Positions 1 to 31,827 of a DNA stretch of 31,827 nt are shown in pieces. The notes beneath the pieces are model-generated. The model saw only the letters and a program-made list of their open reading frames with translations. It searched no databases and was not told where the DNA came from. Position numbers and translations under genes: made by a program. The number at the start of each line of letters is the position of its first letter. Within the stretch, counting starts at the first letter, position 1. Source of the stretch: a virus; the IMG/VR virus record IMGVR_UViG_3300043617_000011, positions 1-31,827 of that record; one strand, given 5' to 3'.

Positions 1-1317
1 GGTCAGGATGATCAGCCCGTTACCGGCCGTCATCACCTTGTAAAGCTCGGTAGTCTTGCCGTCCTCGTCGAGGCTGAACCGGGCGTAGCTCTCCTCGACC
101 CAGATCTCCCGTCCGGCGTCGCGGCGGTCAGGGTAAGGGTAATCGTCCTCCTGGTGGCGCTCTACCCGCTCCAGATTGTACTCGCCGCTATCGTCCTGCG
201 GCACCAGGTCAAGGCACTCCTCGTCGTAACCCTGCTGGATCAAATCGGAGTAGGTCCACCTGCGGCGGTGGGAGATAAACGGGATGTCGCCGCGCTTGCT
301 GCGCTGCGAAAACAGGATCTCCTCGGGTGGTATGTTGACGATCGTAACTTTACCGTTCTCACGGGTGACCCGTAATGTGCAGTCGTAAAGCTCGACCGGA
401 GGCGGCGGCGCGGGCGGCTGCTGCATCGCGGCCATCAGAGACATCATCGCTGCTGGCGGCTGAGGCAGCGCTGCAGGAGCTGCAGGAGGCCCTGGCGGCC
501 CTGAAGGCGGCCCCAAGCCTTGCGGTGGCCCGGATGGCTGTGGCCCACCTGGGGGCGCTCCGGGAGGCGGCGGAGATGATATTTCCCCGGATGGAGGTGG
601 CCCGCCTTGAGGCGGTCCAGAAAAGTGCGGAGAAGGTACTGCGGGCATGGGAGGCGGCGGCACGTAAGGCCGGTCTAAATTGAACTCGTCCATGTCCTGG
701 AGGTACTTCGTCAGCTTGACGACCTCGACATCCTCGTCCTGGCCTAAGAGCGCGTCGTACTGCTCCTTTGTCAGTCCGGTGTAGCTCTCGGTCTCGGTGG
801 TTTTCTGGGTGTCCCAATAGTACTTGACCCAGCCGAGGCGCTCCAACAGGGCGTCCTTAAACCAATCGTGCAGGACCAAGAACCCTTGGTTCTCCCGCAT
901 AAAGACATGGTTCAGATACTCGGTGGCCTGCTTGGCCTGTTGTTCTGTACCCGGCCTCGGCGGCTCTACCGTGCAAATCTTGTCGGAGGCAGTGAATATC
1001 CGGATAAGGGCGGGAAGAACCCACTCTACCGCCTCCAATACAGTACGCATGACAACGGTCGATCGGGAGCCGTCCTCGACCTCGTTGCCAAAGGGCTGGC
1101 CCTCGTAATATCTGAGGGCCTGCAACCGATCGCTGCTGAGGGTGCCGCCGTCGCGGCCTAGCGCACTTTCAAGCTCCTGCCGGATCACGGACTTGACGTG
1201 ATCCTCGTCGAGGTCGTCGAGGTCGAGGCCCTGAACGATCTCCACCCGCCTCTCGCGCCCGCTGCGGCCCCTGGTGTCACCCAGAAAAGCCGAGCCTTGC
1301 AGGCCGTAATCACTCAT
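1..1317 (-). CDS. Phage portal protein, P22-like, 3' end cut by window edge
   Basis: The portal forms the dodecameric ring at the capsid vertex through which DNA is packaged and ejected. The first 439 codons are present and the frame is still open at base 1, so the C-terminus is missing. The region up to about residue 215 has the typical look of podovirus portals: acidic N-terminus, a YYEG segment near residue 70, ED-GSRS-V near 81-90, then VEWVLPALIRIF and a conserved GWVKYYWD near 162. Residues about 219-307 are an unusual Pro/Gly-rich insertion with many PP and GPP steps. After it the fold resumes (VELYDCTLRVTRENGKV, then IPPEEILFSQRSK and an IWVEESYARF segment). The ATG at 1317 lies 3 bases past the stop of the coiled-coil gene. 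The call rests on family resemblance and context beside the terminase block. Confidence 0.82.
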   Translation of the reverse strand, partial: MSDYGLQGSAFLGDTRGRSGRERRVEIVQGLDLDDLDEDHVKSVIRQELESALGRDGGTLSSDRLQALRYYEGQPFGNEVEDGSRSTVVMRTVLEAVEWVLPALIRIFTASDKICTVEPPRPGTEQQAKQATEYLNHVFMRENQGFLVLHDWFKDALLERLGWVKYYWDTQKTTETESYTGLTKEQYDALLGQDEDVEVVKLTKYLQDMDEFNLDRPYVPPPPMPAVPSPHFSGPPQGGPPPSGEISSPPPPGAPPGGPQPSGPPQGLGPPSGPPGPPAAPAALPQPPAAMMSLMAAMQQPPAPPPPVELYDCTLRVTRENGKVTIVNIPPEEILFSQRSKRGDIPFISHRRRWTYSDLIQQGYDEECLDLVPQDDSGEYNLERVERHQEDDYPYPDRRDAGREIWVEESYARFSLDEDGKTTELYKVMTAGNGLIILT

Positions 1318-1542: not shown

Positions 1543-3477
1543 TCACGGGCACGCTGCCTTTTTATACAAGGCACCCGCGCTGTCGACGCACACCGCCAAC
1601 CCGCCGCCGCCCGCCGACGTCGGTAGCGCGGTGAACGTCATCGGCCCCGAAAACAGGCTGCGCGCCGTGCTGTCGCTGTAAATCGCATAATTCGTCGAGG
1701 CCGCGCCGCCGTTGCCGTTTATCCAAAGCCCCTGGTTGATCGTGCCGGCACTGCTGCCGGTGCCCAGACCTGCCCTGAACCCGGTATTCACCACCTGGCC
1801 GCCGGCCCCGGCCGCCGCCGTCACAGGGCCTGCCAGAAACCCGAAATTGCTGTAAGAGCCGCTGGTTGCACCATTGCCGGTGCCGGACCCGCCGGCCGCA
1901 TACCCGATAATACTGCCGGGCCGCACCGCAGAGGTGTTTACCGGCGCAAAGTCATAGCCGTAAACCTGGCCCAGCGTGCCGGTAAAACCGGCCGCCAGGC
2001 TGGGCTGCGACAGAAACCCGCGAACCGCCCCCACCGGCACCGCCGATGTGCCCAACGTGGGCGACGACAAATACTCGTTAACCGTGCTCAGCGACGCCCC
2101 GCCGGGCTTGTAGACGGTGTTGGCCATCCGGGCGACATAGTCACTGGTCACATTGGAGATAATCGTCTCGTTGGGTGACGGCATGATCTTGGTACTGGCA
2201 TTGAGCACGTAATAGGTGCCAAGACTGCCGCCCTTGAAGTAGTTGTTTCTGACAATCGTGTTAACGTGTGGGGTGGCGGTGAACCGCTCGAAATAGCTAT
2301 AGAGCTGATTAGGGCCGCCAAGGTCCGTGTTGTTCTGGATCACATTATCGGTGGGCGGGATCAGGGTGTTTGGATAAGCCGGGCCGGCATTGTCCACCAC
2401 CTGATAAGCGCCCCAGGTCTGATTGCCCTGCGGCACCGCGGTGCCGGCGTTCTGACTGGTGTTGCCCTCGACCAAGTTGTAGCTGCCGTACAGCACAACG
2501 CAGGCGCCGCCGATGTTCTTGCACTGATTGTTGGAGAATACGCTGTACTCGCCGTCCAGCTCGATGCCGCCAGCCGGGGTGGCGTTGATGTCATACGTCG
2601 TCGCGCTGTCGTGCAGGATATTGCCGCTGAAGAAATGCCGGCGGGATATTACCTGGACCTGATACAGAGCGGTGCCCGAGGCCCAGCCGGAAATGTCGTT
2701 GTTGGTGACAAAGATATTCTCGCCGGAAGTCTGTATTCCGCCGTTCTGTATCTTGTTGTTGTGGATATGCACATTGTTAAACTGGGCCGTGCCGCCGCCC
2801 ATCAAGATGCCGCCGCTATTACCATGCAGCGGCTCCTGCACCGTCAGGTGGAACCGGCTGTTCTGGACCGTCCAGTTGTGACTATCGCAGCCATCCGCCT
2901 GGGCCAGGAGGCCGACCGAGCTGTCCGGGATATTGGTCATCGACATATTGTCGATTACAAAATCGTTCTGGCAACTGTATCGGAAAACCACGCTGAAGAC
3001 GGTTATGCCGGCGTCATTGTCAAGCACCCCGGCCAGATCGATCGATAGATTACGCCAGCCGCCACCGCTGCCGTTTGTCATGTTGAAAAGACCGTTGCCT
3101 GCCCCATTGGTCAGAAACGGCAAGGTGCAACCAGGCTTTACCTTCAAGAGCGTAGCATCCCGGCCGGCGCCGATTATTGTCGCGGCGCTGGCAAAGGTAT
3201 AAGTGCCGCAATTAAACAGGTAGGTGCCCGGTCCAAAATAGATGTTCGGGCTGCCGGTCTTTGCCGCCATCGCTGCGATACACGCGGCGTTGTCGGTTAC
3301 CCCGTCGCCTTTGCAACCGAGATCCTTCTGCGCGTCCAGCGTCGGCCAGGCGCCGAGGTTGGCGCGGGCCTCCGGCAACTTCGCGTTGCTGCTGTCCTGG
3401 TACATATCGGCGTGCGCCGGGAGGGCAACCGCCGCTTGGGCCAGCGGCATCAGGGCGACAAGCGCCAGCCACTTCAT
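1543..3477 (-). CDS. Secreted right-handed beta-helix protein (pectate-lyase-3-like), tailspike-like
   Basis: The 644-residue protein begins with a clear Sec signal peptide: Lys2, a hydrophobic core over residues about 3-18, and an AHA|D cleavage site near residue 23. The mature N-terminus has the DGVTDNAACIAAMAA motif typical of pectate-lyase-3/tailspike beta-helices, followed by many short N- and G-rich turns (NNKIQNGG, SNNQCKNIGG, VEGNTSQNAG). The last 150 residues are Gly/Ser/Ala-rich and end in a LAVCVDSAGALYKK segment like phage tail-fibre tips. About ten cysteines suit an oxidising compartment. The start at 3477 is chosen because its ATG overlaps the stop of the upstream gene (ATGA); an upstream in-frame start exists but would weaken the signal peptide. 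Such helices usually bind or cut surface polysaccharides. A leader peptide is odd for a virion spike. Confidence 0.8.
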   Translation of the reverse strand: MKWLALVALMPLAQAAVALPAHADMYQDSSNAKLPEARANLGAWPTLDAQKDLGCKGDGVTDNAACIAAMAAKTGSPNIYFGPGTYLFNCGTYTFASAATIIGAGRDATLLKVKPGCTLPFLTNGAGNGLFNMTNGSGGGWRNLSIDLAGVLDNDAGITVFSVVFRYSCQNDFVIDNMSMTNIPDSSVGLLAQADGCDSHNWTVQNSRFHLTVQEPLHGNSGGILMGGGTAQFNNVHIHNNKIQNGGIQTSGENIFVTNNDISGWASGTALYQVQVISRRHFFSGNILHDSATTYDINATPAGGIELDGEYSVFSNNQCKNIGGACVVLYGSYNLVEGNTSQNAGTAVPQGNQTWGAYQVVDNAGPAYPNTLIPPTDNVIQNNTDLGGPNQLYSYFERFTATPHVNTIVRNNYFKGGSLGTYYVLNASTKIMPSPNETIISNVTSDYVARMANTVYKPGGASLSTVNEYLSSPTLGTSAVPVGAVRGFLSQPSLAAGFTGTLGQVYGYDFAPVNTSAVRPGSIIGYAAGGSGTGNGATSGSYSNFGFLAGPVTAAAGAGGQVVNTGFRAGLGTGSSAGTINQGLWINGNGGAASTNYAIYSDSTARSLFSGPMTFTALPTSAGGGGLAVCVDSAGALYKKAACP

Positions 3478-4343
3478 GGCGTGCCCCAAAACGATTTCTG
3501 GTTCTGCTGCAGCGCCGTTCGCTCACCTGCCGTCAATGCGTAGTTATCCCACCATACCGCTTCGGTGTATGAGCACGACGGCGCCGCCCCATTGTACAAC
3601 TCGTAGATCGGCCCCAGCGTCGTCACCGCCGTTACCGGCCCCGTTGTTTCGGCACCGTCAATCCCAACCACCGATCCAGCGCCGGCAATAACCCCGACGC
3701 CCGAGTGCCACACCGCCGCACTCGCCGGCGCCGACAACGCCGCGCCGTTATACAGCACCAACGACGCACCATTGATGCCCAGCAACTGGCTCGCAGCCTG
3801 GATGCCGTAGCAAAGCCCGCCGGCCGCCGCCACCCTCAGCACTACGCTGAAACTCGCCGACACTGCCCCCGGTGTCGCGTCCGGCGCTTGCATAAACTGC
3901 CCGGTCGTCGAACTGGCGCAGGGCAGGCCGCCGATGCAGTTGAAGACAAACTGCGGCTGCGCCGCCGGGTTGGTCTGCGTCGCATGCCGGGAGTTGCCGG
4001 ACTGATCGTAACGCGTCTTGATAAAACACGTCGTCGCGGCGCAGTGCGCCGCCGCCGCCGCCACGTCGAGCAGCGCCCCCAGACCCGGGACGAAACCAAG
4101 GAAATTTATGTCCAGTTCGGCGTTGTCACTGGCCCGCCGGATGCGTATCGCCGGGCCGGCATACGTGCTGCGCAGCTTCCTGAAGCTGTACGCCGCCGCC
4201 GGGGCACTCGCGACACCGTCCAGCGGCAACACCGCCGAGGCGATCCGGTGCCCGCGATAGGGCGCATGCATCCGCGCATCGGCCGGGGTTGCTGCCGCGA
4301 CCGCCGCCGCCAGCACTGCCGCCGCGAGCACGCGCACGCTCAA
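3474..4343 (-). CDS. Secreted arabinofuranosidase-B/LamG-like protein
   Basis: The start is TTG at 4343, overlapping the upstream stop as TTGA; a GTG lies two codons inside. The first 23 residues are a signal peptide (AAAVLAAAVAAATPADA|R). The mature part carries the pattern AYSFRKLRSTYAGPAIRIRR, then SDNAELDINF, a TTCFIKTRYDQSGNSRHATQ block and AQPQFVFNC. This is the N-terminal pattern shared by alpha-L-arabinofuranosidase B catalytic domains (GH54) and by many phage tail proteins with a concanavalin-like fold. The remainder (about residues 150-289) resembles a LamG-type sandwich ending in YTEAVWWDNYALTAGERTALQQNQ. Cysteines are numerous, which fits periplasmic folding. Glycan binding is more certain than catalysis. 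It is third of four coupled genes; its stop overlaps the ATG of the beta-helix gene. Confidence 0.75.
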   Translation of the reverse strand: MSVRVLAAAVLAAAVAAATPADARMHAPYRGHRIASAVLPLDGVASAPAAAYSFRKLRSTYAGPAIRIRRASDNAELDINFLGFVPGLGALLDVAAAAAHCAATTCFIKTRYDQSGNSRHATQTNPAAQPQFVFNCIGGLPCASSTTGQFMQAPDATPGAVSASFSVVLRVAAAGGLCYGIQAASQLLGINGASLVLYNGAALSAPASAAVWHSGVGVIAGAGSVVGIDGAETTGPVTAVTTLGPIYELYNGAAPSCSYTEAVWWDNYALTAGERTALQQNQKSFWGTP

Positions 4344-4696
4344 ATCCCGCTGCCCGGCGTGATATACACCGTCGCCGCCGTGCCGGCGCTGATCCCCGCC
4401 ACATACTGCTGCTTACAACCGATCACCTCGACGGTGCCGGGCGCGATCGGCATGCCGGCGGCCACGGTGGCGACGATCGCGACATCGCCGCAGGCCAGGA
4501 AGACGGGGACCGTGCCGGCGTTGTAGACGCGCATGCTCGGGTTGTTGGCCGCCGTCTGCACCTGCACCCGCGCCGTCGCGCCGGTTACCGCCAGGCTCAC
4601 CGTCGCCGCGCCCGGGGCGAAGGCCGATACGTTCTGCGCCAGCGCGGGTACCGGCAGCAGCACCGCGGCTGCTGCCAGCAAGGCTGCTGCCTTCAT
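4340..4696 (-). CDS. Small secreted beta-rich phage protein
   Basis: The 118-residue product starts with a signal peptide (MKAAALLAAAAVLLPVPALA|Q). The mature 98 residues resemble a small beta-sandwich protein often seen in alphaproteobacterial phages: an F-PGAATVSLAVTG opening, a RVYNAGTVPVFLACG strand, MPIAPGTVEVIGC and a TVYITPGSGI ending. Those relatives usually lack a leader in my recollection. Two cysteines (in LACGD and VIGCK) could form a disulphide. The chosen ATG at 4696 overlaps the PEP-CTERM stop as ATGA; an in-frame start eight codons upstream would put charged residues before the leader. Its role is unknown; a surface or virion decoration protein is a guess. Confidence 0.72.
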   Translation of the reverse strand: MKAAALLAAAAVLLPVPALAQNVSAFAPGAATVSLAVTGATARVQVQTAANNPSMRVYNAGTVPVFLACGDVAIVATVAAGMPIAPGTVEVIGCKQQYVAGISAGTAATVYITPGSGI

Positions 4697-5364
4697 GGTG
4701 CGCTGAACCGGCGGCGCCACCCCAACGCCCCCGCCATCCCTAACAAGCTGCCGCCCAGCAACAGCAAACTAGCCGGCTCCGGCACCGCATTGGCCGCCGC
4801 GTTGCCCGCCACGCTGGCGGTAAAACTGGCGATCGTCTGGCCGGTGTCGCAGGCCGGACACGCGGTCACGCTTACCGGCGGGTCCACGTTGGTCAGGGAG
4901 AACCCAATAGCGCGCGGCAGATCAAGGGTCGCGATCGTGTCGGAGGCAAACACCGCCGCCTGTGCCGCAATCACGATCTGGGTGCCACCGATCACCGCAA
5001 TCGCCCCATCGGTAAAGGCGCCGCTCAGATAGTTGGTGTCGGCCGGGGCGCATGCCGCCGTCGAGCAGATCGAAAACGTGCCGCTGAAATGCTGCGTCAC
5101 GACAACCCCGCCCGTCACCGTAGCGCCGGTCGAATTGGCCGCGCTGAGGTCGAGAAAGGCACTGATCGGCGTTGGATCGGCGCTGGCGATCTGAGTAATG
5201 GTCACCGCGATATCGCTGCCGGCGATCGTGGTGCCACCGAGACCGCCGGTGCCGGTGATGGTATTCGCACCACTATTTTGACCAAACGTGATGATCGTGT
5301 CGGCCTTGGCCGGCGGGCTCGCAAGCAGAGCAACCGCTGCTGCGCCAGCTAACAGGTGCCTCAT
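4693..5364 (-). CDS. PEP-CTERM sorting-domain protein
   Basis: The 223-residue protein has both ends of an exosortase substrate. The N-terminus is a signal peptide (RHLLAGAAAVALLASPPAKA|D, cleavage near residue 21). The C-terminus carries VPEPASL at about 194-200, a hydrophobic helix over 198-216 and an RRR cluster at 217-219. The middle is Thr/Ala/Gly-rich beta material with two cysteine pairs (SICSTAAC and ACPAC) and no enzyme motif that I recognise. In bacteria PEP-CTERM proteins are processed by exosortase and linked to exopolysaccharide and biofilm surfaces. A strong GGAGG ribosome site lies about 7 bases before the ATG at 5364, so this is the lead gene of the coupled four-gene cassette. 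A bacterial origin for the gene is inferred. Confidence 0.85.
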   Translation of the reverse strand: MRHLLAGAAAVALLASPPAKADTIITFGQNSGANTITGTGGLGGTTIAGSDIAVTITQIASADPTPISAFLDLSAANSTGATVTGGVVVTQHFSGTFSICSTAACAPADTNYLSGAFTDGAIAVIGGTQIVIAAQAAVFASDTIATLDLPRAIGFSLTNVDPPVSVTACPACDTGQTIASFTASVAGNAAANAVPEPASLLLLGGSLLGMAGALGWRRRFSAP

Positions 5365-5388
5365 ATCAAACCTCCGTACGAGTCGTTG

Positions 5389-5412
5389 AGGCGGGCCGGT
5401 AATGGCCCGCCT
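5389..5412. other. Perfect 9-bp stem-loop between the proline-rich gene and the secreted cassette
   Basis: AGGCGGGCC at 5389-5397 is the exact reverse complement of GGCCCGCCT at 5404-5412, with a 6-base loop. It lies between the stop of the proline-rich gene and the ribosome site of the PEP-CTERM gene. No T-run follows on either strand, so it is not a standard intrinsic terminator. It may act in RNA stability, processing or attenuation. Confidence 0.55.
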
Positions 5413-5429
5413 CGCCTCGTCTGATCCGG

Positions 5430-6113
5430 TTACGTCTTGGGCTGCGCGGTCGGCGGCAGGGTGTTGTCGGGCCGCCCGCCTTGGCCCGGCAAGGTATTAT
5501 CCGGCCGCGGCGGGCGGCCAGGGCGGCCACCGGGCAGTTCGTTGTCGACGCCAGGCTGCCCTTCCGGCAGGCTGTGATCCGGGTAGGCCGGCGGTGGGGC
5601 GATCGGGTGCTCCGGGCGCAGGCTGGTATCCACCACCACCCAGCGATAACCAACCCCGGGGATCCAGACAAAAATCATGATCTCGCCATCGCCCAGTTCC
5701 GGCGGCAGCGGGGGGTAAACACTGGCCGGCGGCATCGGCAGCGAATTGTCGGGGCCGATCGGGTGATAAATCGGCAGCGACGGATACACCGGTTGCGGCG
5801 GCAGGCTGTTGTCGGGGTGCACCGGGCGCGGCGGCATCGGCCAGACGTGCGGCGGCCGCGGCAGACTGTTATCCGGCTTTACCGGGTAGGTCGGCGGGAT
5901 CGCGATCGGGTGCGTCGGCGTCCCCGGTATCGGCCAGATCGTCACCGGCGGCAACGGGATCCCATACCCCGGATCGACCGGGCCTTGAACCGGCGGCAGG
6001 CCCTGGTCGGGGCGGTTGCCGCCGCCCTCCGGGATACCGTAATCCGGGTCGACCGGGCCTTCCCCAGTGTGCCGGACATGGATCGGGCTGCGGCTGACTG
6101 CTACATAAGGCAT
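5430..6113 (-). CDS. Proline-rich repeat phage protein
   Basis: The 227-residue protein is built from short repeats of the type PDNSLP, PDNTLP, PDQGLP and PDYGIP spaced every 10-25 residues. They flank one ordered segment near residues 140-170 (GDGEIMIFVWIPGVGYRWVVVDTSL). No signal peptide is visible. Proteins with the same repeat and central core recur near tail genes of alphaproteobacterial phages, without a known function as far as I recall. The AAAGGGGA stretch 9-15 bases before the ATG could be the ribosome site. The gene follows a terminator, so it may open a separate transcript that continues into the secreted cassette. A virion-associated flexible linker or surface polymer is possible. 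Confidence 0.75.
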   Translation of the reverse strand: MPYVAVSRSPIHVRHTGEGPVDPDYGIPEGGGNRPDQGLPPVQGPVDPGYGIPLPPVTIWPIPGTPTHPIAIPPTYPVKPDNSLPRPPHVWPMPPRPVHPDNSLPPQPVYPSLPIYHPIGPDNSLPMPPASVYPPLPPELGDGEIMIFVWIPGVGYRWVVVDTSLRPEHPIAPPPAYPDHSLPEGQPGVDNELPGGRPGRPPRPDNTLPGQGGRPDNTLPPTAQPKT

Positions 6114-6133: not shown

Positions 6134-6161
6134 AAAAGAAAAGGCGGCCGATATGGCCGCC
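6134..6161 (-). terminator. Intrinsic terminator, minus strand
   Basis: On the minus strand GGCGGCC pairs with GGCCGCC (6143-6149 with 6155-6161) around a 5-base loop and runs into TTTTCTTTT. It lies downstream of the terminase-block gene ending at 6188 and just upstream of the proline-rich gene. It should separate packaging transcription from the secreted-protein transcript, or allow partial readthrough. Confidence 0.75.
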
Positions 6162-6187
6162 CCCAGTCGTCGGAAATTCGGCTGCTG

Positions 6188-6599: not shown

Positions 6600-6809
6600 T
6601 TACTTTCGCTGCTCCATGCACCGGTCCAGCATCTTGCTGACGATCTCGGTGCGCTTTTCCATCTGGTTGGACAGGAACCACAATGTCCCGCCGAGAAAAG
6701 CCGCATTCAATACGCACAGCATCAAAAACGCCGGCGGCAGCGCGCTGATCAGGCCGCGACTGATGTCAGCAACGGCGCCCGCGGCCCCGCCGCGCGGCTC
6801 TTCGCTCAC
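6600..6809 (-). CDS. Small single-span membrane protein, possible lysis protein
   Basis: The 69-residue product starts at a GTG that overlaps the terminase stop (GTGA). Residues about 22-46 form one transmembrane segment (ALPPAFLMLCVLNAAFLGGTLWFL). The following helix (NQMEKRTEIVSKMLDRCMEQRK) is charged and would lie on the opposite side. Size and layout would suit a holin, a spanin subunit or another small membrane protein. Nothing in the sequence decides among them, and no endolysin gene sits directly beside it. Confidence 0.65.
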   Translation of the reverse strand: MSEEPRGGAAGAVADISRGLISALPPAFLMLCVLNAAFLGGTLWFLSNQMEKRTEIVSKMLDRCMEQRK

Positions 6810-8101
6810 ACGAGACCCAGCTGGCGGTATTTCAATTTCTGTGGCCGGCCCTGCGGGGTCTCGTACGCCACCGCTAAGAGCCCAAATGCGTCCGCGCTAT
6901 GACTGCTCCAATCATGCTCGGGGCCTAGGCCGACATCTCTGATGTCTTCACTGCGGCGCTCGTGATACCACCCCAAGGCGTCACGGCCGGCCTCGGTCGT
7001 CTCGGCGTTAAACCAGATACTCGGGAAGAGCCTTCGGGCCGCCTCAATTCGCATCCTGGCTGCGCCTCTTCCCTGGTTAGGGATCACCTCTACCGGAAAG
7101 CCCGCCTGGCGGATCGCGCTCTCAAAAGAAACGTCGTAGACCCGGTCGTGACTGGCACCATCGTGCGGAAGGTATATATGGGCCTTCCCCCAGCCTCGGT
7201 CTCGTAACCATTGAAGGTGTACCGCCAATGGCTCTCCGATAGCCTCATAATAGTCCAGCACTCGTACTTCCCGGGAGACGAACTGCGCGATCCAGCAGGA
7301 ATAAGCATCGCTCTTGGCCCCCGTGCCGCCAATATCGACAAACGCCTTGATCGGCAGCAGCGGATCCCGGGAAACCTTCCCAATCCGGCCCTCCCGCTGC
7401 GCCTCCGAGAGAAGGGCAGCAAAGTAGGCACCGACATGCGCCGTCGCGTAGTCGCCCTCCCAAATGTGCGGGTACTGCTCCGGCCGCTTCTGCTCGTCCT
7501 CTCGCCGGATCTGATCCAGCGTGCTGGGGAACCACGGATTGTCGCGCCAGTTTACCTCGACAATCTTGCTATTCTCCGGCGGGTTCTCGCGAAAGCGCTG
7601 GTTCGTCGGGCTGGCCCGCCGCTCCGGGTTCCAGGTCACCCAGATTTCCGCATTCTCCTCGCGCACCGTCGGGATAGCCTTTTGCCAGGCCTGCTCCGAT
7701 ATGTGCTCGGCCTCGTCAACCCAAAGCAGTCGGATGCGCGACGTCGATTTCACGCTCTCGATGTTTCTTCGCAGGCCGACAAAGACGAAGTCGATCCTGC
7801 CGTCCCTGGTTCGTATGTACTTTTCGCCAATATCATAGCTGTCGGCCAGCCAGGGTTCGCTCTCGATCGCCGCCTTAACCTCCGCCATGCTGCTTTCATC
7901 CAGGGAGTTCTGGAACTCCCGGCCGCAAACAATTACCCCGCTCTCCCGTGCTTGGGCACATCTGAGCCCGTGTACCGCCGCCATCTTTGCGGCGGAGCGC
8001 GACTTTCCGCTGCCCCGGCCGCCGTAGGCGCCGCGGTAGAGGGCCTCGCCGCTAAACACCTCCACCAATTTCCTGGGCAGCGCGATCTGTCCCGCCGGCA
8101 T
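6806..8101 (-). CDS. terL: Terminase large subunit (ATPase-nuclease)
   Basis: TerL pumps DNA into the procapsid through the portal and cuts the concatemer. Walker A GGRGSGKS is at residues 27-34 and Walker B LLWVDEAE at 125-132. A coupling WVTWNPE segment is near 154-160, followed by DNPWFP near 187. The C-terminal RNase-H-like nuclease supplies Asp256 in AFVDIGG, an LPHDGASH segment near 313, and a late HSADAFGLL near 410. The 431-residue length is normal for Sf6/PBSX-type terminases. The ATG at 8101 is used because it overlaps the stop of the upstream gene (TGATG); a TTG one codon earlier is also possible. TerS is encoded about 1 kb upstream on the same strand. Confidence 0.93.
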   Translation of the reverse strand: MPAGQIALPRKLVEVFSGEALYRGAYGGRGSGKSRSAAKMAAVHGLRCAQARESGVIVCGREFQNSLDESSMAEVKAAIESEPWLADSYDIGEKYIRTRDGRIDFVFVGLRRNIESVKSTSRIRLLWVDEAEHISEQAWQKAIPTVREENAEIWVTWNPERRASPTNQRFRENPPENSKIVEVNWRDNPWFPSTLDQIRREDEQKRPEQYPHIWEGDYATAHVGAYFAALLSEAQREGRIGKVSRDPLLPIKAFVDIGGTGAKSDAYSCWIAQFVSREVRVLDYYEAIGEPLAVHLQWLRDRGWGKAHIYLPHDGASHDRVYDVSFESAIRQAGFPVEVIPNQGRGAARMRIEAARRLFPSIWFNAETTEAGRDALGWYHERRSEDIRDVGLGPEHDWSSHSADAFGLLAVAYETPQGRPQKLKYRQLGLV

Positions 8102-8289
8102 CAAGCGCGCCCGTCGATATGCGTTGCCGCGTCAAACAACACGCGCGCAACCTCCGAGTTGTCGCCCGCAGCTTCGAGGTTGCCGAATGCAGTCAAGATG
8201 TCGGCAATCAGTCGCATGCGTTCCCGATACGTCTTGCCGGCACAGAAATTGAGGATCGCGTTGGTGAACCGTTCATCGAACTCGCTCAT
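8101..8289 (-). CDS. Hypothetical protein (62 aa) coupled to TerL
   Basis: The product is a short, mostly helical soluble protein (FDERFTNAILNFC, then ERMRLIADILTAFGN, then EVARVLFDAATHI). I do not recognise the family. Its stop overlaps the TerL start, which supports translation and a link with packaging. There is no signal peptide, membrane segment or DNA-binding motif that I can point to. Confidence 0.6.
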   Translation of the reverse strand: MSEFDERFTNAILNFCAGKTYRERMRLIADILTAFGNLEAAGDNSEVARVLFDAATHIDGRA

Positions 8290-9149: not shown

Positions 9150-9707
9150 TCAAGCCGGGCTACCACTAGGCTTCCGAATACGCTGTTTTCGGGGCTTCGA
9201 CGGGGTCACGTCGACGATCGGCCGCGGGTCAACCGGCACCAACTCGATGCGAGTGACCAACGGCCGATCAGCATCACCAACCAGCTCCGCCGTCACCTTG
9301 TCACCAAACTGTTTGGGCAGCATCTTAGAGAGCATCCACTTACGGCTTTCAGCACGCAGCCGAGCGTGCTGCACCATCGCGTTGTCAGGTGCGCCATCGA
9401 ACATGATCGGCTCGTCGCTGATAAGGATTACCTGATCAGCCAATGTCTCGTAACCAAGTAATCGCGCGCGTGCGTATCTGTCCGCAAACGTCAGCGCGCC
9501 ACCTTCACCGTCACCAGGCGGCGGCCTGTCCAACGCCCACATCTTGACAGTGCTTTGCGGCGGCATGTGCGCGTCCTGACAGATCGTTGCCAGGCTCTCG
9601 CCCTCCGCCAGGCGCTCGATAATCTCGTCTGCGATCTCAGGGCGATAGGTCCACTGCCGGCCCCTCGCCCTCGTCATCGCCACCTGCGCCAACCCGTCAG
9701 AAGCCAT
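9150..9707 (-). CDS. terS: Terminase small subunit, Sf6-like
   Basis: TerS recognises phage DNA and presents it to TerL. The 185-residue product shows the Sf6-type layout: a helical DNA-binding part near residues 22-60 (EIADEIIERLAEGESLATIC, then MPPQSTVKMWALD), a central helix with FADRYARARLLGYETLADQ, and the C-terminal signature ARLRAESRKWMLSKMLPKQFGDK near 118-140. A basic, proline-containing tail follows. Its ATG overlaps the upstream stop (TGATG), so it is translationally coupled to the preceding small gene. Separation from TerL by a gene-free stretch and two small genes is slightly unusual. Confidence 0.88.
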   Translation of the reverse strand: MASDGLAQVAMTRARGRQWTYRPEIADEIIERLAEGESLATICQDAHMPPQSTVKMWALDRPPPGDGEGGALTFADRYARARLLGYETLADQVILISDEPIMFDGAPDNAMVQHARLRAESRKWMLSKMLPKQFGDKVTAELVGDADRPLVTRIELVPVDPRPIVDVTPSKPRKQRIRKPSGSPA

Positions 9708-9943
9708 CAGCGATCAGATATTTCTGCACTGAGCGCATCTTTTCCCTCGCCATCCACCTCACCTTGTGTCACTGCGTGTGGTGACGGTTGGTAGTTCCAC
9801 ATCTCAGTGTCGGTGTCGGCATGCCGCGCACTGTCACTATGCACCCACACAGTCGGCTCCTCCTCGTCCCGCACCGGCCGGCACCAGCACATCACACTAG
9901 CAATGTGCTCCTGCGGCATGGCCGCTGGCTCCTCCTGCGGCAT
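9707..9943 (-). CDS. Hypothetical acidic protein (up to 78 aa)
   Basis: The frame opens two bases after the stop of the upstream gene and ends overlapping the TerS start. Two starts compete: ATG 9943 and ATG 9919. The second is preceded by a GGAGGAG at a good distance, and the two starts share the same first 12 bases, a small duplication. The product has a VMCWCRPVRDEEEPTVWVH segment and an acidic C-terminus. No family is recognised. The open frame extends further upstream, but that part would overlap the neighbouring gene and is unlikely. Confidence 0.55.
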   Translation of the reverse strand: MPQEEPAAMPQEHIASVMCWCRPVRDEEEPTVWVHSDSARHADTDTEMWNYQPSPHAVTQGEVDGEGKDALSAEISDR

Positions 9944-9945
9944 GC

Positions 9946-10374
9946 CTAAACCTCGATCAATTCTGAGGAATTGCCGCTCGCCGCCAGAGGGCCTCTTTCC
10001 CCGGCCGCTATACCCCCACCCGGGCCACCCGTTCCCTGCATCTGGCGAGCGTCCCGCATAGCTCTCTGAGCATCCTGATCCGGCATTGGGCTCCACCGCA
10101 CCTTGTGCACGGGCTGGGTCGCGCTCTCAGCCATCGTAAACCTGGCCATGACGTGGATCGAAGGGAGCCGCATCTCACCCCCAAGCCCCTGGCTCGTCAA
10201 ATGCATCGGCTGATCCGGCACGCCAGCCGCGACCAGAACCCTGGCCAACGCATACGAGGCACCGCTGCGCGAGCTTGCGGCGTAGCCCACGCCGTCGACC
10301 GTGCACTCGGCGACCCACGGGCAACCACGGTTCGTCCTGTGTTGCTCGTCGGGCCGCTGCTTCGCCTGGATCAC
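9946..10374 (-). CDS. Hypothetical protein (142 aa)
   Basis: The product starts at GTG 10374, nine bases after the stop of the DUF6362-type gene. It has an N-terminal domain of about 90 residues (WVAECTVDGVGYAASSRSGASYALARVLVAAGV and a later IHVMARFTMAES) and a Gly/Pro/Arg-rich disordered tail. The VDGVGYAASSRSGASYALARVL segment looks like a compact alpha-beta unit with a strand followed by a helix. I do not recognise the family. It is co-oriented and closely packed with TerS genes. Confidence 0.6.
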   Translation of the reverse strand: MIQAKQRPDEQHRTNRGCPWVAECTVDGVGYAASSRSGASYALARVLVAAGVPDQPMHLTSQGLGGEMRLPSIHVMARFTMAESATQPVHKVRWSPMPDQDAQRAMRDARQMQGTGGPGGGIAAGERGPLAASGNSSELIEV

Positions 10375-10383
10375 CGCAGCGCC

Positions 10384-10905
10384 CTAGCGGACCGCGTAGC
10401 CTTCCGCGTCAACCCGCATGCGTCCTGGTGTCCCGTTGAGGTAGGCAATGATCCGGTGCTCGCCGTCGTGCATGATCCGCCGGAGCTGCGATGCCTGCCT
10501 GCCGCGGCCATTACGTTCGAGTTCATCCAGCGCCTCCAGTTTTCGCCACGAGAACGGATGCGGCTGCGACCTGGCCCACATCACCAGCCGCTGATCCCGG
10601 GTCAGCAGGAACAACCATCCCAGGACCTCTTCGCATCGGGTGATTTCGGCGGGAGTTGGCGGAATGCGGGGGGCTCTGGCCGGGAGCCAACCGTAGGCGA
10701 GCCAATCGTAGACCACATCGGGCCAGACAACTCGGTAGTCGTCAGGGCGGGAGTTACGGGGCATCGGCAGACGCTGGATCGTATATGCCGCCTCCCGCAA
10801 CCGATCGCGAACGGTCTCCTGGTCCCATAGCCCGCACTTCTGCGAGCCTGCCCCTGTCGGGTATCCCGGAATGTTGCATGCGTCAAGGCTATTTTGCACC
10901 CACAC
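10384..10905 (-). CDS. DUF6362-like phage protein
   Basis: The 173-residue product contains the pattern of DUF6362: VRDRLREAAYTIQRLP near residue 32, a WP followed by a helix, an RIPPTPAEITRCEEVLGWLFLL block near 80-100, then a VMWARSQPHPFSWRKLEALDELERNGR block with a predicted HTH-like arrangement. Members are common beside terminase genes in alphaproteobacterial phages. A DNA-binding or packaging-site role is plausible but unproven. GTG 10905 and GTG 10899 are both possible starts and neither has a strong ribosome site. Confidence 0.65.
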   Translation of the reverse strand: MWVQNSLDACNIPGYPTGAGSQKCGLWDQETVRDRLREAAYTIQRLPMPRNSRPDDYRVVWPDVVYDWLAYGWLPARAPRIPPTPAEITRCEEVLGWLFLLTRDQRLVMWARSQPHPFSWRKLEALDELERNGRGRQASQLRRIMHDGEHRIIAYLNGTPGRMRVDAEGYAVR

Positions 10906-10948
10906 CCCCGCGCCGGCCCAACACCACCCTACACCAACTCCTCGGCCG

Positions 10949-11242
10949 CTATCTATCCATCAACTCGTTTTCCGCGTCCCACAAAGCCTGTAGTCGAGTT
11001 TCCGCCTGTCGTTTTCGCGAAGCCTCTTCGGCCAGCACCATCTCAGTCATCCGTAAGAGGTCGCCTGCGCTGGGGACGATACCGCGCCCGTGCTGCCGCC
11101 ACCATGCGGTGCACAGGTAGAGCGTATCCGCGACTACAATCAGCGTGGACTTTACGTCCTCCCCACAAACCACCGCCTCATCAGAGCGAAGCGTGTCCAG
11201 GCCGTTCAGCAACCGATCGAACTCACCCACTGATCCCGACAT
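10949..11242 (-). CDS. Hypothetical helical protein (97 aa)
   Basis: ATG 11242 is preceded by an AGAGGAACACAGG ribosome site. The product is mainly helical, with a STLIVVADTLYLCTAWWRQHG segment in the middle and a charged C-terminal helix (AEEASRKRQAETRLQALWDAENEL). No family is recognised. It is the first gene after the phased CTAG repeats at 11265-11304 and may open the transcript leading to the terminase genes. Confidence 0.6.
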   Translation of the reverse strand: MSGSVGEFDRLLNGLDTLRSDEAVVCGEDVKSTLIVVADTLYLCTAWWRQHGRGIVPSAGDLLRMTEMVLAEEASRKRQAETRLQALWDAENELMDR

Positions 11243-11264
11243 CCTGTGTTCCTCTGTGCCTTTT

Positions 11265-11304
11265 GACTAGAGCTGACTAGAGCTGACTAGAACCGACTAG
11301 AAAT
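11265..11304. promoter_or_regulatory. Four 10-bp direct repeats, GACTAG-NNNN, candidate operator
   Basis: Four consecutive 10-base units begin GACTAG: two are GACTAGAGCT, then GACTAGAACC and GACTAGAAAT. The CTAG cores start at 11267, 11277, 11287 and 11297, exactly one per helical turn. They lie 23-62 bases upstream of the minus-strand gene starting at 11242. The same phased core recurs at 14695-14720, which suggests a shared DNA-binding protein. Confidence 0.6.
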
Positions 11305-11411
11305 CGTGAGGATAGTGATACGCGTACACGGCTATATATTTTTTCTCTCTCTCTTTTCTAAACATATGGAGTTCCCCCACGCGCGCGCGTAGTATCACGA
11401 TCGGCTCGGTC

Positions 11412-13805
11412 TCAGCGGTACTGCCCCAGACGGTTCATCGCCTGTTTGACCCGTTCAGCCCGAACAGTCTCAGATGCCCTGCGCGCGGCAAACTGGTCCT
11501 GCAGACCGGGGCGCACCTGCCAGGCATAGTTGCTCGGGTAATGCGTCTCCGGTTGCAGCCAGCCGCCGATGGTCAGCAGGAACACCGCATCCTGGACTTC
11601 CTTCAGCGAGCGCAGCGACCGGCACGCGGCAATGTCGCGGCGCAACTGCCCTGCGGTAACCCGGGGCATCGGATGGCGCAGCAGGAAACTCCCGATCGCT
11701 TGCGCGGTATGATCGGCCGATCCTGGCAGCCCGGCATAGAACACCTCGGCATGCCCCAGCAGAAACCGCGCGTATCTTCCGGCCCTGGCTACGGTGGCCT
11801 CGGGGATCACCTGATCCTGCCCGCCGTCGATCAGGTGTAGGATCAGCGCTGTACGGGCGTGCACTCCGTGCAGTTTTCGGATAAACCCGCGTAATCCAAC
11901 GCCAATGTCCGGCCGCAGCAGGAGATCCTCGCCGGCACTCTCGGTCTCTCGGATGTGCCCCTCGCCTGCCGGATCTGTGCGATAGCTCTCGAACGCTCCG
12001 ATCGCCAAGAGCTGGTCGATGATGGCGAGGATTGCGCCGATCTCCGGTGTGCCCGCCGCTCGCCGGCCCTGAGACGACACTGGCTGTTGCAAGACGATAC
12101 CCAGCCGTGACAGCAGCCCGTCTTCGTCCAGCCCGGTAAAACTTGCCAGTTTTTGCGGTTGGATACCGCCTAGCATGGCTAACGCGCAATTATCGATCGT
12201 CGTGGTTCGCGTCATCCGCCCGATCGTCATCGGGCCGCCTTCGTATGTCTCCAGGAAAAACGCCCGTTCGGCAGCCCCGTGACCGCCGCCGGAATACCGC
12301 CCGAAATCGAACAGCCCGGCCAATTCGTCCCGCAGGTACAGCAACCCGCGCGGATTGGCGGCCATCCACTCCTGTAATTTCTCGATCGTGGTGTCCTCTG
12401 CCAGGAGCGCCCGCACGGTGGGTGCGTGCTGTTGCTGTCTGTCGGCTTTTGGCAAGGCCTGCCACAGGGCTGCGTCACGGCCATACTGTTTCATCCGCTC
12501 CAGGTTTTGCCGCCGCAGTGACGCCAGCGGGTGCCGCAACAAGGCTGTTTTGCGTAGCCCGGTCTCGGCCACCAGCATGGTCCACAGCACCGGGCGCACG
12601 TCCCACAGCGTATTGGCGTAAGGGGTGAGCAAGATCCGCTTGTCGGCCGCCCCGGAGGCTGCGGTAAGCATCACCGCCCCCAGCGCCCCTAAATCCACAC
12701 CATCGCGCGCCGCCAGGTCGCCCATGCTGTCTTCCAGCCGGGCCGGGCCGACACTTCCCGGCCACGCCGGCGGCGCCAGCCTGGTCCACAGATCGATCGC
12801 CTCACCGGATAAAGGGCGTGGGTGTACCCGCGCCAGCCTTGCCGGGTCTACCGCGTCAAATTCCAGGCTCGCCAGGCATAGAAGGCCGCCGCTGTCCTCG
12901 CGGATCACCCCGTCCGCCCAGGCTCGGACATCCGCCATCCCGCGATCTTCGCAGTGTCCGTGATGGCATTTGTACCGCTGCGCTACCGGGACGTAGGCGG
13001 CTGCCGTGCGCGGGTCGATATGCTCTCCGGCCCACGGGCACTCGACCTCGAACCCCCAGCCGAACGTCATCGCCCGCCCGGCGCTCTGCACCATGCCACG
13101 CTCGCGGAACACTCGCAGGATCGGGTCTGCCTCGATTGCGGCCGGGTCGGGCATTACGTTGCCCACGCCGAGCCGTAGCTCAACCGGGACCACCTCGCCG
13201 ACCCGTCTCTCGATCTCGATCCAGTCGGTATGCCGTACCCGACTGTCGGGCTGCCAATGCACCAAGCGCACCCGGAACCCAGCCTGCCCGAGAGCGGCCT
13301 TGAGGTTCGAGCCGCAAGGCAAGCGCACCAGGGTGGTCGGCTTGACCAGATTATCCCCTTTGCGGCCCAGGGCCTCGTAGAGCGCCCGCAGGAGGCCGCT
13401 AACCCACGCCCGGTCGGTGAGGGGGTCGATAAACCACCCCGCCTGATAATTGCCCGGCGAGGTCTCCAGGATGTAGCTCGGCGGGCAGCTCATCACCGCC
13501 TCGGCCCGCACCGGGTCGACCTTGACCCCCCAATCGTCGAGCACTACCGCGTAGAGCGCGGCAAAGTCATTCCCGCTCCGGCCGCCGCCGGGTTGCGGCA
13601 GGCTTACATCCCAATAGTTGTTTAATTCCGGCGACATCACCCGCAACACACTGGCTGCTGGGTAGGTGCGCCAATCGGGGTTACCACCAGGATCGCCGTG
13701 GAAATAGGCCACCAGGGCCTCACCCCAGCGCTCACCAAATACAGCCCGCAGGAATTGCTCGTTGGTAATCGGGGTGAGAGGCACAACTCGGCTGCTGGCG
13801 GGCAT
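11412..13805 (-). CDS. Primase-helicase: AEP-like primase N-terminus with DUF3987 C-terminus
   Basis: The 797-residue protein would prime and unwind phage DNA. The first third resembles RepB/AEP-type primases: LYAVVLDDWGVKVDP near residue 80-95, LETSPGNYQAGWFIDP near 115 and VKPTTLVRLPCGSNLK near 155. A Cys/His cluster (YKCHHGHCEDRG) follows near 285. The C-terminal half has DUF3987 features: a degenerate P-loop VAETGLRKTALL, LLYLRDELAGLFDFGRYSGG, FFLETYEGGPMTIGR and ALAMLGGIQPQKLASF followed by DGLLSR. The second P-loop glycine is arginine here. ATG 13805 follows GGGAG at about 12 bases; the open frame extends 35 codons upstream without gene-like sequence. Residue numbers are approximate. 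Confidence 0.8.
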   Translation of the reverse strand: MPASSRVVPLTPITNEQFLRAVFGERWGEALVAYFHGDPGGNPDWRTYPAASVLRVMSPELNNYWDVSLPQPGGGRSGNDFAALYAVVLDDWGVKVDPVRAEAVMSCPPSYILETSPGNYQAGWFIDPLTDRAWVSGLLRALYEALGRKGDNLVKPTTLVRLPCGSNLKAALGQAGFRVRLVHWQPDSRVRHTDWIEIERRVGEVVPVELRLGVGNVMPDPAAIEADPILRVFRERGMVQSAGRAMTFGWGFEVECPWAGEHIDPRTAAAYVPVAQRYKCHHGHCEDRGMADVRAWADGVIREDSGGLLCLASLEFDAVDPARLARVHPRPLSGEAIDLWTRLAPPAWPGSVGPARLEDSMGDLAARDGVDLGALGAVMLTAASGAADKRILLTPYANTLWDVRPVLWTMLVAETGLRKTALLRHPLASLRRQNLERMKQYGRDAALWQALPKADRQQQHAPTVRALLAEDTTIEKLQEWMAANPRGLLYLRDELAGLFDFGRYSGGGHGAAERAFFLETYEGGPMTIGRMTRTTTIDNCALAMLGGIQPQKLASFTGLDEDGLLSRLGIVLQQPVSSQGRRAAGTPEIGAILAIIDQLLAIGAFESYRTDPAGEGHIRETESAGEDLLLRPDIGVGLRGFIRKLHGVHARTALILHLIDGGQDQVIPEATVARAGRYARFLLGHAEVFYAGLPGSADHTAQAIGSFLLRHPMPRVTAGQLRRDIAACRSLRSLKEVQDAVFLLTIGGWLQPETHYPSNYAWQVRPGLQDQFAARRASETVRAERVKQAMNRLGQYR

Positions 13806-30896: not shown

Positions 30897-31029
30897 TGCT
30901 AACGCCTCCTTCGTCCGAGGCTTCTGTCTCGGACTGTGTCTCTTGCCTCGGAGGCAGTTGCGCCTCTAGCTCCTCGATGTATTCCAGCGCCAGCCGGTGC
31001 GCCTCCCAAAGGGTGCCGTAATCACTCAT
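30889..31029 (-). CDS. MSDY-type coiled-coil peptide, copy 2 (46 aa)
   Basis: ATG 31029 follows a strong GGAGGAGGGG site and overlaps the tail-fibre stop (ATGA). The product starts MSDYGTLWEAHRLALEYI and continues EELEAQLPPRQ, then an acidic tail. It is a diverged paralogue of the gene at 29850-29987, and the two bracket the DUF2934 and hydrophilic genes. Coupling to the fibre gene suggests a fibre-assembly helper. Confidence 0.68.
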   Translation of the reverse strand: MSDYGTLWEAHRLALEYIEELEAQLPPRQETQSETEASDEGGVSSE

Positions 31030-31827
31030 CGCCCCTCCTCCAGTACCGCGACGCGGGCGGCCAGCTCCTTGCACGCATTGATCAGCAGATACACGGCATG
31101 GGTCGGCGTCAGGGTCTGCACTGAGACACCGTCAAACTCTGTCTCCCCGACCATTTCCGGCACCACGCCGGCCACCTCGGAGGCCATCAGCCCGTAGCTG
31201 CGCCCCGGCCACGGCGTCTCGTCGGTGTAATCAAAGCTGCGTGGGGTCAGGCTCAAGAGCGCCCCCAACCCGGCGTAGTAAGGCTCTACGTTCCGCTTCA
31301 GCCGGTCATCCGAGATCACCGCCCATGAGCCACTCTGGTTGTACGTGCCGATTGAGTCAAAACGCGCGTAGTTTGAGAACCCGCCGCGCGACTGAAACAA
31401 ATGCACATTGTTTTGGTATGAGTTATTACCGTTGGTGTACAACGTAATGTTGGAGCCGCCGGGGTCCGACAGTTGCGTGTAGGTAGCGCCCGCATCCATA
31501 AACCCGAACGGTGCGCCGCGTAGGTTGTATGCTGCCGCGTTAACGGCGTTGTTGCTGCTGATGCTGTTGGCGGTCAGCAGGTTGGCGCTGCAGGTACCGC
31601 TGACGGCAACGGTAGAGGCATTGAGCGTGCCGAAAACGTCGCCCCCGTTGGTGGTCACATGGTTGGCGGTTAAGGTGTTGGTAATATCAGCGATGCTGGC
31701 GGTAAGGGTGCCGCCGGCGCTAATGTTGTTATTGCTGACAATCGCCCCGGCGGTAAGCGTATTGGTAACAGTGGCAACGCCGGCGGCAAGGGTGCCAGCA
31801 ACGCTCATCCCGCCGTTGCTGTTTACC
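31026..31827 (-). CDS. Tail fibre/spike with S74 intramolecular chaperone, 5' part outside window
   Basis: The frame is still open at the right edge, so the N-terminus is missing. The visible part begins with Thr/Ala/Asn-rich repeats (TLTAGAIVSNNNIS, then TLTASIADITNTLTAN), then a distal domain (FGFMDAGATYTQLSDPGGSN, NVHLFQSRGG). The end is a peptidase-S74 chaperone: SDDRLKRNVEPYYAGLGALLSL with the Ser-Asp-Lys cleavage region, RSYGLMASEVAGVVPEMV, and a terminal helix (THAVYLLINACKELAARVAVLEE). S74 domains trimerise the fibre and then cut themselves off. The missing part should hold the virion-attachment domain. Confidence 0.88.
   Translation of the reverse strand, partial: VNSNGGMSVAGTLAAGVATVTNTLTAGAIVSNNNISAGGTLTASIADITNTLTANHVTTNGGDVFGTLNASTVAVSGTCSANLLTANSISSNNAVNAAAYNLRGAPFGFMDAGATYTQLSDPGGSNITLYTNGNNSYQNNVHLFQSRGGFSNYARFDSIGTYNQSGSWAVISDDRLKRNVEPYYAGLGALLSLTPRSFDYTDETPWPGRSYGLMASEVAGVVPEMVGETEFDGVSVQTLTPTHAVYLLINACKELAARVAVLEEGR

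Follow-up and report, generated by a model that had tools for sequence, protein, structure and literature searches.

Four overlapping genes with leaders

The stretch analysed here, referred to as the window, is the virus record IMGVR_UViG_3300043617_000011 (31,827 bases, linear and incomplete). Its minus strand carries a set of four neighbouring genes, g1 to g4, at 1543-5364, which with the related sets in other phages is called the cassette below. A preliminary description had placed ATGA, TTGA and ATGA junctions between these genes, and its coordinates and frames are right. g1 (5364-4693) encodes a PEP-CTERM protein of 223 residues, with leader MRHLLAGAAAVALLASPPAKA^D (^, proposed cleavage) and C-terminal sequence VPEPASLLLLGGSLLGMAGALGWRRR, and has a GGAGG ribosome site at 5371..5375. 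g2 (4696-4340) encodes a small, predicted all-beta protein of 118 residues from its ATG (leader MKAAALLAAAAVLLPVPALA^Q), and g3 (4343-3474) a GH54/LamG-like jelly-roll protein of 289 residues with a TTG start (leader MSVRVLAAAVLAAAVAAATPADA^R). g4 (3477-1543) encodes a spike-like protein of 644 residues from its ATG, with a pectate-lyase-type beta-helix match; its N-terminus consists of leader MKWLALVALMPLAQAAVALPAHA^ and then mature DMYQDSSNAKLPEARANLG. Stop and start codons overlap by 4 nt at each junction, as ATGA between g1 and g2 (4693..4696), TTGA between g2 and g3 (4340..4343) and ATGA between g3 and g4 (3474..3477).

Leaders were called not with SignalP but with a purpose-written rule that requires a positive n-region, ten uncharged hydrophobic residues and small residues at -3 and -1 (A-x-A-type). 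At annotated starts the rule is passed by four of the 31 window genes, which are exactly g1-g4, all neighbours, in agreement with the earlier assignment of a Sec leader to all four products. The chance of four flagged genes among 31 being contiguous is 0.0009, and the background of the rule is low (8 of 6568 internal segments, 0.12%). However, the rule is also passed by a proportion of shuffled first 40 residues (21% for g2, 12% for g3, 4% for g1 and 0.6% for g4). Thus, composition alone accounts for part of the g2 and g3 result, the single-genome test is weak for these two, and conservation in relatives is the stronger evidence.

Conservation of leaders and cysteine pairs

The relatives are found on metagenomic contigs with mechanical gene calls. 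A g2 profile search of IMG/VR recovered 63 distinct homologs, with a leader present in 50 (44 by the rule, six by eye) and absent in 13. Mean pairwise identity in g2 is 35% in the leader versus 63% in the mature part, but the n-h-c pattern is kept nonetheless; for g3 the values are 41% and 45%. The g4-type proteins were collected with a pattern covering only the mature motif DM[YF][QP]D[AG][SKG]N, independent of any leader. Of the 55 distinct proteins with this DMYQD-type mature N-terminus, 53 pass the leader rule and the leaders of the remaining two are obvious, with the proposed cleavage directly before the D of DMYQD. Homologs of g1 (L002, L009-L011, L022, L023, L028, L030 and L029) keep both leader and PEP-CTERM tail where not truncated, including the L029 relative (~48% identity), in which the cysteines differ. 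Leaders are therefore kept in homologous phages, a comparison that the preliminary description withstands.

Cysteines had been described as abundant in all four products, which does not hold, as their content (1.6-2.1%) is inside the range of other window genes. Parity and pairing make the better argument. The mature counts of g1-g4 are all even (4, 2, 6 and 10, respectively). Each of the 50 g2 proteins with a leader has two mature cysteines, mostly in ...CGD... and ...E(V/I)(I/L)GC, and this pair is found in 0 of 13 leaderless homologs; the second cysteine is shifted a few residues on in L062, L067 and L069, and both lie elsewhere in L102. In g4-type proteins the mature cysteines range from 4 to 16, with an even number in 53 of 54 complete proteins, and g3 proteins have an even number in 41 of 42, the one exception counting a leader cysteine. 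Among control genes (leaderless genes of these contigs that have two or more cysteines) the number is even in 155 of 255, giving Fisher p values of 2e-9 for g4 and 2e-7 for g3, which ignore relatedness and hence overstate the case. The g3 cysteines C101, C106, C136 and C142 do not vary; C178 and C257 are lost jointly in L066. Leaderless g3 relatives from Gordonia and Aphanizomenon phages carry F(A/V)GSG..F at the position of the cassette's HCAATTCF, with the CxxxxC pair missing, and it is likewise missing from a Synechococcus phage relative. An exception is the g3 relative L014, which has both cysteines yet no leader that could be found. Exported proteins of Gram-negative bacteria are known to favour even cysteine numbers (PMC7678975). 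Cysteine pairing and parity thus track the leader, which is independent evidence that the leaders work, and together with leader conservation this makes passage of the products across the inner membrane, with disulfide formation, very probable.

Protein families and gene neighbourhood

g1 scores above the PEP-CTERM cut-offs (PF07589, 24.4 versus 20.7 bits; TIGR02595, 22 versus 16), and its C-terminus has the PEP motif, hydrophobic stretch and Arg cluster, in addition to the N-terminal leader called by the rule. PEP-CTERM proteins of three mutually unrelated families are found in cassette phages or their close kin. The two families unrelated to g1 appear above the Pfam cut-off in 5 of 15 cassette contigs not selected for PEP-CTERM. 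These proteins (L168 in G404, L169 in G407, L170 in G411, L171 in G400 and L172 in G402) are encoded away from the cassette, with a leader present where the N-terminus is available. In G404 (43.7 kb) the PEP-CTERM gene appears to run across the contig ends (3-635 and 43539-43716, minus strand), which may mean that the contig is a complete circle. A search of 16 phage records found no exosortase, the second PEP-CTERM family has no relative in cultured phages or on plasmids, and searches of the open-access literature returned no description of phage-encoded PEP-CTERM proteins or of sets of spikes with leaders. Among bacteria, PEP-CTERM is associated with an outer membrane and with genes for exopolysaccharide (PMC1569441), and this association is the best hint to the host. 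In L009, a T4-type lysozyme-like gene and a small holin-like gene (4546-4995) lie between g1 and the Pro-rich and g2 genes, an arrangement that ties g1 to lysis genes in that contig.

The structure model of g2 is weak (predicted local distance difference test score, pLDDT, 60) and all-beta; its similarity to uncharacterised phage proteins is no more than a hint, and a sequence search of the PDB gave no credible match. The label "small beta protein" given earlier agrees with the fold of the model, although the model itself is of low confidence. Leaderless g2 relatives are uncharacterised phage proteins, of which the L031 copy immediately precedes a fibre labelled "chaperone of endosialidase". 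g3 matches Pfam ArabFuran-catal (46.8 bits, cut-off 25), and the top five PDB matches of its model (pLDDT 87.6) are GH54 arabinofuranosidase B (6sxt/1wd3, Foldseek E 3e-11). The fold similarity is partial (template modelling score 0.63-0.66; 0.63 by query), and the sequence match to GH54 spans only 75-80 residues, with alignments ending near residue 125. By its model g3 has a GH54-like fold, and it is not classed as an enzyme. Several relatives contain two or three repeats of the g3 module. Matches of the model to botulinum and sialidase lectin domains were dismissed as generic jelly-roll similarity. g4 matches Pfam Pect-lyase_RHGA_epim (38.7 bits, cut-off 27). The families originally proposed for g1 (PEP-CTERM), g3 (GH54/LamG-like) and g4 (beta-helix) are right, given the Pfam matches above cut-offs and the GH54 fold of the g3 model.

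Downstream of leadered g2, the order g3 then g4 recurs with -4 or -1 junctions in both podovirus- and siphovirus-like contigs. Genes for another DMYQD protein, a QQVPNPMS-type protein with a leader and a Tat-like protein (NRRALLAGAAAASLIRP) frequently come next, ahead of the terminase large subunit (TerL), portal or siphovirus-type tail genes. The Tat-type member is optional and matches Glyco_tran_WbsX. The cassette is also where leadered genes concentrate in six 39-48 kb contigs that were read piecewise. Leadered proteins of 76-106 residues, Q- and P-rich past the leader, are encoded near the cassette in G400 (32423-32653), G403 (3679-3999) and G407 (10440-10682), and may have a role in lysis as spanin-like proteins. 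The cultured-phage collection yielded no relatives of g1 or g4. A leadered-g2 profile run against 84,980 genomes gave only a distant leaderless match, in a metagenome-assembled genome of Lysobacteraceae. g1 has no match in 399 Pseudomonadota genomes, and the flanks read around the TerL matches in these genomes (best 60%) contain no cassette.

The late genes on the minus strand of the window are ordered as terminase small subunit, TerL, small genes, Pro-rich repeat protein, g1-g4 and portal. The terminase small subunit (9150-9707) matches PF20901, and TerL (6806..8104) was assigned from its own sequence, position and relatives. The TerL genes of L006 (open reading frame 9413-12214) and L030 (open reading frame 2009-4060) have in-frame, intein-like inserts of ~345 and 242 residues, respectively, at one site after residue 400 of the window TerL; the L006 insert starts CLTADTEIITRDG. 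The Pro-rich protein (5430..6113, minus strand) is leaderless, has PDNSLP-like repeats and is conserved among close relatives. In L009 and L010 the main copy of its gene immediately precedes g2, and g1 is preceded by a remnant of the N-terminal part. A terminator-like hairpin with a T-rich tail upstream of the Pro-rich gene (6140..6164, minus strand) might divide a TerL unit from a g1-g4 unit, and a G+C-rich hairpin with no T-run lies between the Pro-rich gene and g1 (5388..5413, minus strand; z-score of the 64-nt fold -4.5). Promoter-like and terminator-like matches in the window are no more frequent than in shuffles. The SU10-type portal (1..1317, minus strand; PF23899, E 1e-82) is cut by the contig end, and its closest cultured counterparts, of SU10/LUZ24-like and Pelagibacter-phage types, are ~41% identical at best. 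At the other end (31026..31826, minus strand) is the C-terminus of a tail fibre with a Peptidase_S74 chaperone, its start cut off; the L026 relative of this fibre has no leader. The window, whose ends fall inside the portal and the tail fibre, contains no gene recognised as coding for a major capsid protein.

Possible roles and comparison with known systems

Export of the g1-g4 products is highly probable on the combined pattern of leaders and cysteines. This part of the interpretation offered in the preliminary description stands, whereas its choice between a set sent to the cell surface and virion spikes matured in the periplasm is left undecided by sequence. The products look spike-derived, given the conserved 20-residue mature N-terminus of g4-type proteins, their hypervariable remainder, the GH54-like fold of g3 and the matches to tail-spike PHROGs. 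On balance, g1-g4 appear to be part of a conserved modular cassette of spike-derived proteins in uncultured soil phages.

Each product carries its own Sec-type leader (Tat-like in some relatives) and, in the proposed scheme, would pass the inner membrane, shed the leader, gain disulfides in the periplasm and then work outside the cytoplasm. The small beta protein g2, the putative glycan-binding or -cutting jelly roll g3, and g4, with a variable beta-helix "blade" on a constant N-terminal dock, may bind or cut host-surface or extracellular polysaccharide, and g1 would be passed to a host exosortase via its PEP-CTERM tail. The likely pay-off would be that receptors and matrix glycans are hidden or stripped, so that progeny do not re-adsorb and rivals are excluded.

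Action on the host surface, instead of incorporation into virions, is slightly favoured. Tailed phages build their heads and tails in the cytoplasm. Fibres with S74 domains are present in 9 of 13 contigs, including the window, and are leaderless where checked, so cassette phages carry fibres apart from the cassette. The N-terminal dock recurs next to differing portal and tail gene types, and the WbsX-like Tat-type and PEP-CTERM companions also point to the surface. An appreciable but lesser probability is given to g2-g4 being virion spikes (g2 as base, g3 as lectin and g4 as blade) that mature in the periplasm, with disulfides and trimers, and dock only at lysis, a delay that cytoplasmic assembly would impose and that counts against this reading. 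Several observations fit such spikes and weigh against surface action. The first 20 mature residues of g4-type proteins are conserved (mean identity 62%) while 732 of 903 pairs have no BLAST match past residue 60, as expected of a dock with a variable body, and at least two proteins can share one N-terminus within a single phage. The g4 relatives, including that of L024, match tail-spike PHROGs, or else a pectin-lyase PHROG. Of the g3 members, 21 of 28 match phrog_10356 (virion structural protein), and leaderless g3 relatives carry minor tail or virion structural annotations. The location of the cassette between TerL and portal also suits virion spikes. It is a tentative suggestion, somewhat doubtful at present, that receptor-binding spikes are exported by Sec or Tat, oxidised in the periplasm and, once the cell lyses, joined to the virion from beyond the cytoplasm, as a second, extracytoplasmic assembly line.

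Two further explanations depart from both surface action and virion spikes. A lysogenic-conversion cassette, with exported adhesins or enzymes expressed from a prophage to the benefit of the host cell, would be in keeping with the integrases in 7 of 16 cassette contigs and with PEP-CTERM proteins being typical of exopolysaccharide-producing bacteria (PMC1569441). However, it is improbable, as the cassette lies amid same-strand packaging and structural genes and, in the loci read, has neither integrase nor repressor next to it, the incomplete window shows no integrase domain, and the profile search of genomes found no leadered g2 in sequenced bacteria. It is very improbable that the leaders are non-functional, simply hydrophobic N-termini of alanine-rich proteins from a G+C-rich genome whose products stay inside. 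The passing of 12-21% of shuffled g2 and g3 N-termini agrees with this, but the rare passing of internal segments and the absence of any further gene among the 31 do not, and leaders that survive divergence with cysteine pairing tracking them led to rejection of a plain artefact.

In the usual view, tailed phages produce their spikes and fibres and attach them within the cell. If spike-like proteins leave it with leaders and disulfides, this would be either a new way of finishing a virion or a toolkit remodelling the surface of the infected cell, in the latter case with PEP-CTERM proteins addressed to the host sorting system. Caution is also needed in soil viromes, where such genes may be labelled "auxiliary" carbohydrate enzymes from glycoside hydrolase or pectate-lyase matches.

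Like g4, the beta-helix tail spikes of podoviruses and siphoviruses (PF12708; PHROG 2234, 7458) have a short constant N-terminus, a variable beta-helix-like body and a late structural neighbourhood. However, classical tail spikes are not known to carry leaders, whereas every g4-type protein found is leadered and nearly all have even cysteines. Target proteins of phage diversity-generating retroelements are also reported to be without signal peptides (PMC6199706). GH54 alpha-L-arabinofuranosidase B (PF09206; 1wd3, 6sxt) resembles g3 in fold and, by sequence, in the N-terminal third including the FCxxxTC pair, but differs in that the sequence match is short and the g3 module is often in tandem repeats. 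The minor tail and virion structural proteins of Gordonia, Aphanizomenon and Synechococcus phages (phrog_10356) are g3 homologs, but unlike cassette g3 they are leaderless and have no CxxxxC pair in those checked. g1 shares the leader, PEP motif, hydrophobic stretch and C-terminal Arg cluster of PEP-CTERM/exosortase substrates, but is phage-encoded with no exosortase found beside it, and belongs to a phage group with three unrelated families. Exported phage proteins include T4 RI antiholin, P1 Sim, Cor/Llp-type exclusion proteins and signal-anchor-release (SAR) endolysins. These resemble the cassette as phage proteins using host export, but are single and mostly small, whereas the cassette is a multi-gene spike-like set.

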